Of a stretch of DNA of 64,000 bases, positions 9,885 to 37,275 are shown piece after piece. The position numbers were made by a program, and so were the translations under genes. Where the stretch lies: positions 4,670,895 to 4,734,894 of the forward strand of contig NZ_JHEG04000001.1 of NCBI RefSeq assembly GCF_000760695.4, written 5' to 3'. The stretch comes from Tolypothrix bouteillei VB521301. Its GTDB lineage: Bacteria > Cyanobacteriota > Cyanobacteriia > Cyanobacteriales > Nostocaceae. Each line of letters starts with the position of its first letter. Within the stretch, counting starts at the first letter, position 1. The notes below the pieces were generated by a model, which ran no database searches, had not been told where the DNA came from, and saw only the letters and a program-made list of their open reading frames with translations.

Positions 9885-11051
9885 TTATCGCTTTGGAGCT
9901 CGGTCAAACGCTCTTGCTATTGCGTTCCAAGCTAATTTGCGTTGGAAGTTAACATCCAGTGGTAAAGGACGCACTGGTTGACCATCGGAACGTGGCAGAA
10001 AATATGCGTGCCATGTATATCGATCGCTCAGCCCCCAGGTTAAGACTGCAATCACGGCTTTCTCATCTAGCACTACTGAAAGATAGTCTTCATAGAGACT
10101 GGCAACCATGCGATCCCGAACTGTAGAATCTGCTGGCAGCTGTTGGTCTATTACGTCTAGTTCAGTAATCAGTATTTTTAAACCGAGACTGGCTACATCA
10201 GAGAGAAAAGCTCGCAGCTTTTGAGGGTTAAAGGCTTTTTCATGAGCCATTAAGTGAGACTGAATACCGAGAGCATGAATCGGTGTACCCTTTTTTAAAA
10301 GATTCTCTAAGAGCTTTAAAGTTGCCTTTCTCCTAGCCTCGTGTTTGGGTATATCGTACTCAATCCATGTCTCATTATACACTAACATAGCTTTTGGGTC
10401 AGCCGCCGCCGTTGCCCGATAGGCTAGTTCAATATAACTCGGCCCTAAAAAATCGAGCCATGGAGAACTCTGCAAACCATCAGACCTACCATCTTCTGGA
10501 TCTATCGCTTCGTTAACCACGTCCCAAGAATGCATCTTACCTGCATAGCGCTTAGAGACAGTTGTGATATGGTCTACCAAAATTTTCTCTGCGTTTTGGC
10601 GGTTAACAGTCTCTTTGAACCATATAGGTATGTCTTGGTTCCATACTAAAGTATGTCCTCTATAAAGAATACCACGATTGCGTGCAAATGCAGCTAACCA
10701 ATCTGCTCTAGCGAAGTCATACTTATCGGGAGCAGGACGGAGTTGAGACCATTTGAGAGCGTTTTCCGGCACTATCATGCCGCAATCTCTAGTAAAACTA
10801 GCACTAAAGGATGCATTGGATTGAAAAAAATCGGGTTCGACTGCTGCTCCATAAATAATCCCCTTTGAAGCAGCACGTTGTTTCAAAGAATTTTGTCCAA
10901 CCACTTTAAAGTCTCTTTTTGGATTGTAAAGAGCTTGGACTTGGTTGTTCGTATTAACTATTTTTCCTGCTGTCACGGCAGCTGAGCTGGCTAAACCTGA
11001 GAATCCCAGGAATATGAAATGACGCCTGCTGAGAGGAAATTTTGGATACAT
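9885..11051 (-). CDS. Glycoside hydrolase family 10 endo-1,4-beta-xylanase, Tat-exported
   Basis: From ATG 11051 the protein has 388 residues and begins with a twin-arginine-type signal (SRRHFIFLGFSG then a hydrophobic Ala-rich stretch). The GH10 barrel shows GHTLVWNQDIPIW, WDVVNEAI (acid/base Glu about 181) and ILITELDVID (nucleophile Glu about 297). It should cleave beta-1,4-xylan or mixed xylose-containing chains outside the cytoplasmic membrane. An alternative GTG start at 11102 overlaps the upstream stop as GTGA, implying translational coupling; neither start has a good ribosome site. Its place among glycosyltransferases suggests action on the cell's own polymer. Confidence 0.9.
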   Translation of the reverse strand: MYPKFPLSRRHFIFLGFSGLASSAAVTAGKIVNTNNQVQALYNPKRDFKVVGQNSLKQRAASKGIIYGAAVEPDFFQSNASFSASFTRDCGMIVPENALKWSQLRPAPDKYDFARADWLAAFARNRGILYRGHTLVWNQDIPIWFKETVNRQNAEKILVDHITTVSKRYAGKMHSWDVVNEAIDPEDGRSDGLQSSPWLDFLGPSYIELAYRATAAADPKAMLVYNETWIEYDIPKHEARRKATLKLLENLLKKGTPIHALGIQSHLMAHEKAFNPQKLRAFLSDVASLGLKILITELDVIDQQLPADSTVRDRMVASLYEDYLSVVLDEKAVIAVLTWGLSDRYTWHAYFLPRSDGQPVRPLPLDVNFQRKLAWNAIARAFDRAPKR

Positions 11052-11098
11052 GCACGATTGATAGGTAATACAATTGGTTACTGATGATTCGTCATCGG

Positions 11099-11878
11099 TC
11101 ACTGATTGCTAGTTACAGGTCCAAGTAGGTCAATAAATTTCTGCCGCAACAGCCGATAGAAAAATAACGAATTGCCTACTAAATATCTTTTCCAAAGACG
11201 ACGCGGTTCGGTAACGAATCTTGTCAACCATTCAAATCCAGAGTTGGTTAGCCACTGAGGACCGCGATAGACAGTGTTTGTATAGAAATCGAGGCATGCA
11301 CCAAGAGGTAAGAAAACTTTTGCATCGATTCGATCCATGTTGTCTACGAGCCAACGTTCTTGTAATGGCATTCCGAAACCCACATACAAGATTCCCGGTT
11401 TAAATTCATTAATCTTCTGAATCACAATATCGTTATCACGACTGGACTTATCAAAATAGCCGTGATGTCCTTGTACTTTAAGATTGGGTGCGATCGCCGT
11501 TAACTTAGAAATTGCCTTATCTACAACTCCAGGCTTTCCTGCTAGAAGGAAGAGAGAGACATTGTTTCTTTCACAAGCTAACGCCAAGCTTTCTATATAG
11601 TCCGGACAAGTCATGCGATGCCTGGATTCCACAGAGTATCCAAAAAATTTTGCTGCTAGCAGTACACCGAACCCATCACAGAAAACCACATCAGCTTTAT
11701 TTAAGAAGTTGCGATACCAAGGCAGTTCGCAGGCAAAGTTCATGGCTCTGATATTTACATTCCCTACAACCGTCTTCTCTCGGGTTTTCGCCGCCTCAAC
11801 GACATAAGATATCAACTGACAAGCTGTGAGCTTGTGAAACCGAGTTTTCAGTATTGTAATTTCTTCAAATGATGGCAT
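11099..11878 (-). CDS. WecG/TagA/CpsF family glycosyltransferase
   Basis: This 259-residue GT26 protein has VVFCDGFGVLLAAKFFG, LFLLAGKPG, and ILYVGFGMPLQERWLVDN, with the C-terminal WLTNSGFEWLTRFVTEPRRLWKRY block that tethers the family to the membrane. Relatives add ManNAc, ManNAcA or similar sugars to a lipid-linked acceptor. AAGGGG lies 8 bases before the ATG. The stop overlaps the GTG alternative start of the GH10 gene. A paralogue sits at 15225-16040; two such genes in one locus suggests two different acceptor steps. Confidence 0.9.
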   Translation of the reverse strand: MPSFEEITILKTRFHKLTACQLISYVVEAAKTREKTVVGNVNIRAMNFACELPWYRNFLNKADVVFCDGFGVLLAAKFFGYSVESRHRMTCPDYIESLALACERNNVSLFLLAGKPGVVDKAISKLTAIAPNLKVQGHHGYFDKSSRDNDIVIQKINEFKPGILYVGFGMPLQERWLVDNMDRIDAKVFLPLGACLDFYTNTVYRGPQWLTNSGFEWLTRFVTEPRRLWKRYLVGNSLFFYRLLRQKFIDLLGPVTSNQ

Positions 11879-35212: not shown

Positions 35213-35632
35213 TTTTAATATCTGTAAAACTTTCAGCAACGCTTACCTTTGTAGAAACGGTTGCATTGTTTGAATTGGTTGAATAAATGGTTGAATTTGT
35301 AAAACTTATTTAATAAATTCCATAACATAAAAATAATTTAATACCGTCGCCTGTCATGACTCATACCATTTGGCGTCGCTCGCAAGTGACGTAAATTCTG
35401 TAGAGACACATTGTTGGAAGTGTCTCTACACCCTCAAATTGTGTCATCCTTTTCATCAGCAGCAGACTGGTGCTACATCTCAGTTGGCGAGCCTGCTTTT
35501 ACCTTCTAAAAAAAGTTTTTAGCGATCGCAGCATACCCTGCATAAATCAAATCGGTCAGACATATGAACCGGTAGGAGCAAGAAAAACAAAAATTGCTCT
35601 CATAAAAATTCACTACCTACCGGGAGAGATCG
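35213..35632. other. Intergenic region before the GFADF peptide gene
   Basis: Holds the palindromic repeat at 35399-35430 and a HIP1 site near 35524. An overlapping frame at 35470-35652 is not convincing. The promoter of the peptide gene must lie here. Confidence 0.45.
35399..35430. repeat. Inverted repeat TGTAGAGACAC / GTGTCTCTACA
   Basis: 11-bp perfect stem with a 10-base loop, a class of repeat (TAGAGAC) very common in Nostocales intergenic regions. Confidence 0.75.
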
Positions 35633-35989
35633 ATGATTTTTTTACGTTCTAAATCTAGCCATTTTGCTTTGTTGGTGAGCTTGACTTTAGCAAGTTCGAT
35701 TATTAGCACTGTTGCTAGGGCAGAGTCAAATCCTTTTATTTCCAAAAACACCGTAAGTCAACCTAGCATTCAGAAAATTAACAATCCTATTATCCGCGAT
35801 AAAATTGATATTTTTACTCCAGGCAAAATCAATGGTGCCGATCAATTTAAAGAAGGATTTGCCGACTTTAAAGAAAAACCAGGTTTTGCTGATTTTACCA
35901 AACCTGTTGATAAATCGAGCATTGCAGACCCATCTATTATACAGCGTCCGTCCGCAGTTGATACATTCAAACAAATTCAAACTCGTTAA
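35633..35989 (+). CDS. Candidate RiPP precursor with signal peptide and two GFADF repeats
   Basis: This 118-residue protein has a Sec-like N-terminus (residues 1-30, hydrophobic LLVSLTLASSIISTV then ARA^ES) and a polar remainder. GFADF occurs twice, at 75-79 and 84-88, within KEGFADFKEKPGFADFTKP. An aromatic-X-Asp triplet is the kind of site crosslinked by three-residue cyclophane-forming radical SAM enzymes, and a radical SAM/SPASM gene follows 101 bp later. GGGAGAG precedes the ATG. Leaders resembling signal peptides are known for GRRM-type precursors. Precursor status is an inference from gene context and motif. Confidence 0.6.
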   Translation: MIFLRSKSSHFALLVSLTLASSIISTVARAESNPFISKNTVSQPSIQKINNPIIRDKIDIFTPGKINGADQFKEGFADFKEKPGFADFTKPVDKSSIADPSIIQRPSAVDTFKQIQTR

Positions 35990-36041
35990 GTTTGAATATT
36001 TTTCAAGGTAATTCTAATTTCAGTCAGACTTAGTTAACTTT

Positions 36042-36070
36042 GTAAAGACGTTTTGGCAAAACGTCTTTAC
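36042..36070 (+). terminator. Strong hairpin between peptide gene and radical SAM gene (attenuator-like)
   Basis: GTAAAGACGTTTT/AAAACGTCTTTAC, a 13-bp perfect stem with loop GGC. No long T-run follows, so it may be a processing/stability hairpin or partial attenuator rather than a full terminator. Confidence 0.55.
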
Positions 36071-36090
36071 CTTACTCATAGGTAATTATC

Positions 36091-37275
36091 ATGATACAGG
36101 AAACAAAAAAAGTTCAATTTGTTGTCAAAACATCCAAACATTGTAACCTGAGATGTCGCTACTGTTATGAATACGCAGAGTTAGCCAACAAACAAGCGAT
36201 CGCACTAGCTCAAATACAGCAAATGTTTACCAATATTGCTAGTTACTATCAACATTTAGATTTTGATATTGAAATTGAGTTTGTCTGGCATGGTGGAGAA
36301 CCATTACTACAAAAACCTGATTTTTACTGGCAAGTGTTCGAGCTACAAAAACAGATATTTCAGTTTGACAATATTCGAGTTAGAAATGGCGTACAAACAA
36401 ATTTGACATTATTAGACTCACAACGCATAAAACTTTTAAAAGAAGGATTCGATGGTGTAGGAGTTTCAATAGATCTATTTGGAGGATTGCGAGTTTACCA
36501 AACAGGTATTGAATCCCAAAATAAGGTTTTAGAAAACATAGATAAACTGACAAATGCCGGGATTGATTTTGGTTGTATCAGCGTCCTCACCAAGCAAAAC
36601 TTAGAGTTTATTCCAGAAATATACAATTTTTATCGACAAATGAATCTATCTGCAAGAATATTACCTTTATTTAAAGGTTCATTTGAAAATCAACATCAAG
36701 GTTTTGAGATTACTGCATATGAAGTCTTAGAAGCTTATAAAAAACTAGTAGATTTATGGCTAGCAGATGAAAAATTGGTTTGGATATCTCCAATTTATGA
36801 AGCAATTAAGCAGGTAGTTCATCACTACACGCCCAATGCTCCAACAAGTTTCTATGATAAAGGTGAATGGGAGTCAATTTATATTGTTGATGTTGATGGA
36901 GAAGTCTACAGCTATGCAGATGCTTACTTAATAAGCCATACGCACGGAAATATCTTTAATCAACCCCTCGGCGCATTAATTAAGAGTTCTCAGCACCACA
37001 AAATAGTTATCGAAGCAGAAGAAAGACTTCAAGAAACTTGCAGTCAATGTAAATTTTTCGGTAGTTGTAGCGGTTATCCAATCGCCGAAGGAAATCGACA
37101 ATATAATGAGATGAATTCAGACGGTTCGATTAAGTGTATTGTTGATAAAGGAATTCGACAATATATTGAGTATCGTCTGTTTGAAATGGGAATTATCGAT
37201 CTAGATAGAGGATATGTAAAATTGGAACGATTGGATCTCAATCGCCAAAGTTCGCCCAGTTTAGCTTATATTTAG
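36091..37275 (+). CDS. Radical SAM/SPASM peptide maturase
   Basis: This 394-residue enzyme has the CxxxCxxC cluster motif C18-C22-C25 in KHCNLRCRYCYEY, a TIM-barrel with EFVWHGGEPLL and NGVQTNLTLL, and a C-terminal SPASM region with C317, C320, C326 and C349 for auxiliary iron-sulfur clusters. The layout matches the RiPP maturases that install C-C crosslinks (such as GrrM- and cyclophane-type enzymes). It follows the GFADF peptide gene, its likely substrate. A short extra tail (about 373-394) is Leu/Asn/Ser-rich. No transporter or protease gene is adjacent. Confidence 0.85.
   Translation: MIQETKKVQFVVKTSKHCNLRCRYCYEYAELANKQAIALAQIQQMFTNIASYYQHLDFDIEIEFVWHGGEPLLQKPDFYWQVFELQKQIFQFDNIRVRNGVQTNLTLLDSQRIKLLKEGFDGVGVSIDLFGGLRVYQTGIESQNKVLENIDKLTNAGIDFGCISVLTKQNLEFIPEIYNFYRQMNLSARILPLFKGSFENQHQGFEITAYEVLEAYKKLVDLWLADEKLVWISPIYEAIKQVVHHYTPNAPTSFYDKGEWESIYIVDVDGEVYSYADAYLISHTHGNIFNQPLGALIKSSQHHKIVIEAEERLQETCSQCKFFGSCSGYPIAEGNRQYNEMNSDGSIKCIVDKGIRQYIEYRLFEMGIIDLDRGYVKLERLDLNRQSSPSLAYI

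Follow-up and report, generated by a model that had tools for sequence, protein, structure and literature searches.

A candidate triceptide-like radical SAM maturase and its GFADF-bearing precursor in Tolypothrix bouteillei

A two-gene unit of Tolypothrix bouteillei VB521301 probably encodes a triceptide-like RiPP maturase together with its Sec-exported precursor, in which F-A-D segments would be closed into three-residue cyclophanes (probability about 0.76, from sequence comparisons). The unit lies in a window of 64 kb, the whole stretch of DNA that was analysed (G000:C1:4670895-4734894 within a 9.9-Mb genome). It consists of a 118-aa precursor gene followed, after a gap of 101 bp, by the gene of a 394-aa radical SAM enzyme, both on the (+) strand (Table 1). 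An earlier description made from the letters alone, called here the sequence-only reading, had given the same coordinates for both ORFs and the same same-strand spacing, and had proposed a cyclophane-type RiPP system. This candidate assignment is supported by the pairing of the two genes at 21/21 intact loci and by the recurrence, in diverged cores, of a polar residue two places after an aromatic one (the +2 signature). The pair would extend the cyclophane-forming radical SAM enzymes by a clade for which no family model exists.

Table 1. Features of the gene pair, in positions of the window
Feature	Position	Strand	Remarks
5' leader stem	35569..35623	+	8-bp arms 35569-35576 and 35616-35623; inner 5-bp stem; just before the ribosome-binding site
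Precursor gene	35633..35989	+	118 aa; cysteine-free
Predicted Sec-type signal peptide, residues 1-30	35633..35722	+	hydrophobic core from about residue 13; ends ARA↓E
F72-K-E, possible extra ring site	35846..35854	+	missing in P0006/P0007
F76-A-D, proposed ring 1	35858..35866	+	invariant 7/7; +2 signature
F79-K-E, possible ring	35867..35875	+	invariant 7/7
F85-A-D, proposed ring 2	35885..35893	+	invariant 7/7
C-terminal SAVDTFKQI tail	35951..35977	+	common to Sec- and Nif11-leader precursors
Intergenic hairpin, 13-bp stem	36041..36071	+	between precursor and enzyme genes
Radical SAM maturase gene	36091..37275	+	394 aa; RRE domain not found
Radical SAM CxxxCxxC motif, C18/C22/C25	36142..36165	+	kept in 22/22 aligned clade enzymes
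Auxiliary-cluster set C317/C320/C326...C349	37039..37137	+	one set only

The neighbouring genes of the pair are ordinary. A tRNA lies on the 5' side, and the 3' side carries, in order, PGA_cap, an NAD_synthase-like protein, a branched-chain amino acid permease and a radical SAM protein which looks like a lipoyl synthase. The sequence-only reading had remarked on the lack of a nearby transporter or protease; this holds for C39-type exporters over the 64-kb window, where none was found, and for proteases between positions 30 and 43 kb, where none was seen by eye. The named sources of relatives of both the precursor and the enzyme are Scytonema and Calothrix.

Re-reading of the translation places GFADF twice in the window precursor, at residues 75-79 and 84-88, as had been reported. 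The block GFADFKEKPGFADF is unchanged in the seven sequences found (7/7, the window's own counted), although the overall identity is as low as 43-46% for two of them, which argues that the repeat is beyond chance. Two further F-x-[DE] sites, F72-K-E and F79-K-E, were absent from the sequence-only reading, as were the conserved C-terminal tail, the intergenic hairpin and the paired 5' leader. Its pair of F-A-D sites stands, but the ring sites may number three or four. The leader, hydrophobic and ending ARA↓E, is signal-like both in sequence and in hydropathy, in keeping with the earlier description. The signal peptide was called from these two properties and from helix 7-30 of a single-sequence structure model (pLDDT 62, a low confidence; the model was used for the leader helix only), and they place the probable cleavage at ARA↓E, about residue 30. 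At the other end the precursor terminates in RPSAVDTFKQI, of which RPSAVDTF is conserved, its D varying. The SAVDTFKQI tail is possibly a recognition or sorting element.

A candidate precursor was found upstream of the enzyme, on the same strand and about 60-690 bp away, at 21/21 intact loci (22 enzymes). With the window precursor as sole query, 388 genomes of the order gave three core-covering matches at E <= 1e-4, and 3/3 adjoin an enzyme. A fourth match, in G384, belongs to a different family of small proteins that shares the leader, and the many weaker matches of this single-sequence search (E > 0.001) were treated as chance; diverged precursors, e.g., those of L078-L080, are beyond its reach. 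A precursor profile run over 192 genomes of the family gave 24 matches, of which nine are full length and adjoin enzymes and 15 are weak. All nine (or the same protein) are rows of that profile; having been used to build it, they cannot count as separate evidence for the pairing. The weak matches have E values from 1e-8 to 0.007; the 11 that were read form the single leader-sharing family just mentioned, the others being L101, L103, L105 and L107. The same 192 genomes hold ten intact enzymes, nine with a Sec-type precursor and one, the own-genome paralogue at C1:885919, with a Nif11-leader precursor. The sequence-only reading had proposed to compare the occurrence of the peptide and of the enzyme across genomes. 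Peptides apart from an enzyme were sought accordingly, and the profile detected no full-length precursor away from an enzyme in the 192 family genomes. No SAV-tail ORF was found at two degenerate enzymes, L077 (G380, a truncated gene of 234 aa) and L052 (G452, a fragment with a stop).

The precursor cores are diverse: they include GFADFKEKPGFADF, PKFGEAKPGTPFVNF, DNKPGWIEV, SWTDSWSDSWGE, GFRDAFRDSFKE and PFVRENGPSFVR and, on Nif11 leaders, PSFVDFSDEPLFVQV, GGPIFAQ and PSWVNQ. The +2 signature was counted in 19 representative cores out of 27 precursors. D, E, N, Q or R stands at +2 of Phe or Trp in 64/88 cases, for a background of 0.296 (binomial 8e-17), a p-value which, like the others of this analysis, treats the precursors as unrelated and concerns a residue set picked after viewing the cores, Arg being added last. 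Between offsets -5 and +6, all positions but +2 stay at p 0.17 or above for this set in the 19 cores. The proportion is 48/70 with one core per lineage and 44/64 when the window lineage is left out. D/E/N/Q alone occupies +2 in 50/88 cases, with marginal values at offsets -1 (p 0.05) and +6 (p 0.03), and at least one [FW]x[DENQ] is present in 19/19 representative cores, compared to a mean of 13.2 after shuffling (3/5000 shuffles equal the observed count). Gly/Pro is likewise in excess two places before Phe/Trp (p 2e-4), as is Lys/Arg three places before (p 0.002). Some cores hold aromatics outside the rule, in F-K-L, F-R-L and F-S-S / F-S-x.

Passages of PMC11002830 describe OscB and XncB as linking an aromatic residue (Trp or Phe) to the residue at i+2 (Asn, Asp or Arg) through the beta-carbon of the latter, and the +2 offset of the clade cores equals this geometry of characterised three-residue cyclophanes (aromatic i to beta-carbon of i+2). 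The sequence-only reading had placed the partner at the third residue after the aromatic, which that account corrects to i+2; its proposal that F-A-D fits is unaffected.

In the sister clade of the enzyme, the signature was examined in nine one-per-lineage precursors of 18 translated: it is present at 22/26 Trp, gives no signal for Phe alone (5/38 at +2), and none for D/E/N/Q at +2 when F and W are pooled (13/47). In the precursors of L063, L066, L050 and L051, a long conserved N-terminal part is followed by a short C-terminal segment with as many as five W-x-[DENQR] motifs. They may represent a second, unnamed cyclophane-like family.

Radical_SAM is the one Pfam model whose cut-off the window enzyme exceeds, SPASM and Fer4_12 being just under, and the Pfam domain scan found no RRE domain in it. 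Its cysteines C18/C22/C25 and C317/C320/C326/C349 had been assigned correctly by the sequence-only reading. With C162 they make eight, all kept in 22/22 clade enzymes; too few remain for a second set, so that only one four-cysteine auxiliary cluster is possible. GrrM and YhhB/FxsB-like references have an equally reduced auxiliary set, the first of the four cysteines being shifted in GrrM. C162 (window 36574-36576), a cysteine of the barrel, is invariant in the 22 clade enzymes and absent from five GrrM and YhhB/FxsB-like references. The other 21 clade enzymes are 49-89% identical to the window enzyme. In a 62-row tree, the window clade plus a 30-35%-identical sister clade is set apart from GrrM and YhhB-like enzymes with 100/100 support, on a split that sits on long branches and drew a long-branch warning from the tree program. 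No plasmid match to the enzyme was found at E 1e-50. P0104, a protein of 644 aa that is 48% identical to the maturase, ends in histidine-kinase domains (PF00512, PF02518).

When the NCBIfam scores of the window enzyme are considered (best 25 of 75 families), it passes the cut-off of no model. The top match, which is full length, is DynA NF041298 with 166.8 bits for a cut-off of 450; lower scores include those of the anaerobic sulfatase maturase TIGR03942 (134.7 vs 349.45), GrrM/OscB TIGR04261 (98.7 vs 310, with 25% identity to GrrM), AmcB (96.5 vs 425), YhhB (83.5 of 445), FxsB (59.5 of 370) and XyeB (42.9 of 450). The GrrA/OscA1 model TIGR04260 does not match the window precursor or the precursors of four relatives that were scanned, whereas two true GrrA peptides, taken as a control, match it at 116 and 121 bits. 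By this search of family models, which the sequence-only reading had proposed, the enzyme is not GrrM. The pair falls outside every named maturase family that was compared.

The likeness to the GrrA/OscA1 system is nevertheless real. GrrA/OscA1 and GrrM/OscB are cyanobacterial, have a secretion-like leader, GFAN repeats that resemble GFADF and a reduced auxiliary cysteine set; the GrrA peptides found here indeed combine a hydrophobic leader with GFAN repeats, in agreement with what had been said of GRRM-type precursors. Unlike that system, the window enzyme falls in a separate clade and its precursor has no glycine-rich repeats. YhhB, FxsB, XyeB and AmcB are radical SAM enzymes with a related motif logic, according to passages of PMC11002830, and the YhhB/FxsB-like L118/L119, themselves under cut-off, have the same cysteine set as the window enzyme, which however scores far below the cut-offs of all four. 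The arrangement that serves to recognise triceptides, a precursor with aromatic-x-x motifs next to a radical SAM enzyme gene, was found at 21/21 intact loci. Kostenko et al. (2022), who mapped unexplored radical SAM RiPP clusters, described Aro-x-Asn peptides and a cluster which pairs a radical SAM enzyme with an Fe/alpha-ketoglutarate oxidase (passages of PMC9062424); the main-text part of that source contains 0 words beginning with cyanobacter, Nostoc or Calothrix. In the literature compared, which lies outside the primary triceptide studies, no description is tied to this enzyme clade.

In the proposed mechanism, binding of the precursor by the radical SAM enzyme would take place in the cytoplasm, independently of an RRE domain. 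The enzyme would attack the second residue after an aromatic one, removing a hydrogen from its beta-carbon. This carbon would then be bonded to the aromatic ring, giving a strained three-residue cyclophane with the loss of 2 H each time. The rings would span F76-A77-D78 and F85-A86-D87 and, possibly, F79-K-E and F72-K-E. The crosslinked precursor would leave by the general Sec route, the signal peptide being removed at about residue 30. We infer the type of bond, the choice of closing sites, Sec export and the order of the steps from the features described above, and the acidic or amide residue two places after an aromatic could instead be needed for binding, with no bond formed there.

A different radical SAM crosslink, such as an i to i+3 ring of the dynobactin type, a darobactin-type ether or a fused F-A-D-F ring, is rather unlikely. 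It would account for the top HMM score of DynA (among the best 25 of 75 families) and for the second Phe which the core F-A-D-F offers at i+3, but the enrichment of the residue set lies at +2 and is lacking at +3, and DynA and DarE score far under cut-off. The rings of dynobactin differ from three-residue cyclophanes in being larger, i to i+3. The enzyme class is also versatile enough for a modification without a crosslink, e.g., epimerisation or beta-hydroxylation of the D/E/N/Q/R residue, and a varying residue at a fixed place would suit hydrogen abstraction there. This would leave the constant aromatic two places earlier unexplained, and the characterised enzymes with this type of motif make cyclophanes (passages of PMC11002830), so that we consider it very improbable. 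A thioether reading (ranthipeptide or sactipeptide) was rejected: the absence of cysteine from the window precursor counts against such chemistry. A few precursors of relatives have one or two cysteines.

We give as small a chance as to a modification without a crosslink to the proposal that the aromatic-x-acid pattern is a docking or assembly motif and that the enzyme modifies the precursor elsewhere, e.g., in the SAVDTF tail. No other part of the precursors is shared as widely as the tail, which is present in 15/19 representatives and behind both leader types, but the four without it (4/19) nevertheless have the enzyme and the +2 motif. It is hardly conceivable, finally, that the enzyme is an anaerobic sulfatase maturase, or matures another protein, and that the peptide is a secreted protein which has nothing to do with it. 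Among solved structures an anSME is indeed the nearest (E 5e-20), and TIGR03942 is among the better scores. The SPASM domain of anaerobic sulfatase maturases holds two auxiliary clusters; the window enzyme has cysteines for one set only and misses the TIGR03942 cut-off, which led to the rejection of this assignment, and a peptide partner lies beside the gene, as at every intact locus.

Two types of leader are found in front of the cores at the 21 loci. In 16 the leader is hydrophobic and of Sec type, L113 having such a leader but no AxA-like site; in the other five (L069, L081, L082, L083 and L114) it is a Nif11 leader ending in GG, with Pfam Nif11 above cut-off in each. Exporters that contain a C39 peptidase domain lie downstream at L081 and L083, and the one at L081 also matches NHLM_micro_ABC1. 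Among the Sec-type loci, the check for such exporters, which at six loci covered no more than about 1.5 kb of flanking DNA, yielded one match: an ORF fragment of 25% identity that lies at the L072 edge, some 8.5 kb away from the enzyme. The window core can be aligned gap-free to the two Nif11 cores of L082 (p 0.0004 and 0/5000 shuffles) and also to the core of L073 (p 0.008); its alignments to L081 (p 0.51) and L069 (p 0.33) are not significant. L082, with its double-glycine leader, and the window, with its Sec leader, agree in core layout, with two aromatic sites nine residues apart and a Pro between them. The presence of this layout behind both leaders suggests that the enzyme may recognise its substrate outside the leader, in the core or in the C-terminal tail. 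The exchange of leaders around a constant core motif is a natural experiment on recognition by the enzyme.

At 11/21 loci, a predicted 2OG-Fe(II) oxygenase follows the radical SAM enzyme or is fused to it. This protein has no Pfam family and is a new candidate for an oxygenase partner; the window locus is without it. The loci may, at somewhat less than even odds, belong to one crosslinking family in which the ring module is kept while delivery is swapped, recognition does not involve the leader, and an ancestral oxygenase was lost in the window lineage. In that case the window would encode a cyclophane maturase that works independently of the leader, a useful tool for the production of constrained peptides. 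At L069 (11576-13714), two JmjC_2 domain proteins come after the own-genome paralogue and its 2OG-type companion (10647-11543), possibly making three oxygenases in one RiPP locus.

Hairpins of unrelated sequence occupy the gap between precursor and enzyme genes: z is -2.2 or lower in 15/17 loci tested (not in L073 and L112), the 17 being part of the 21 loci and the set having no control regions. In the window, the hairpin may set the ratio of precursor to enzyme. The fold of the 5' leader is common to four GFADF orthologues, with 90.4% of cells paired and two pairs changed on both sides; it is weakly supported as a conserved structure, as 66/500 shuffles equal this pairing and one alignment row is off by a column. 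About 85-100 bases before the start codon of the precursor, TGCATAAA occurs in 7/9 loci (window, in the region 35535-35623, L070, L071, L035, L074, L111 and L112; it is absent from L072 and L073). It is possibly a shared regulatory element.

The leader-sharing small proteins constitute a separate secreted family, read at 11 loci (L095-L100, L102, L104, L106, L109 and L110; e.g., L095 1225-1650). They have the same type of leader, an RRDTL segment and a GKESSDKGKDSSDKG-type core with two cysteines. A conserved ORF of about 262 aa and then a second ORF lie downstream at 6/6 loci inspected, and the proteins scanned from these loci gave no Pfam or NCBIfam match. As a guess, this layout resembles that of graspetides.

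A caspase-domain protein (Peptidase_C14) directly follows the maturase at L111 (2677-4161), L112 (1-1482) and L078 (4082-9151), where it continues with nSTAND1 and WD40 repeats. At L075, the upstream gene resembles a caspase-domain protein by eye.
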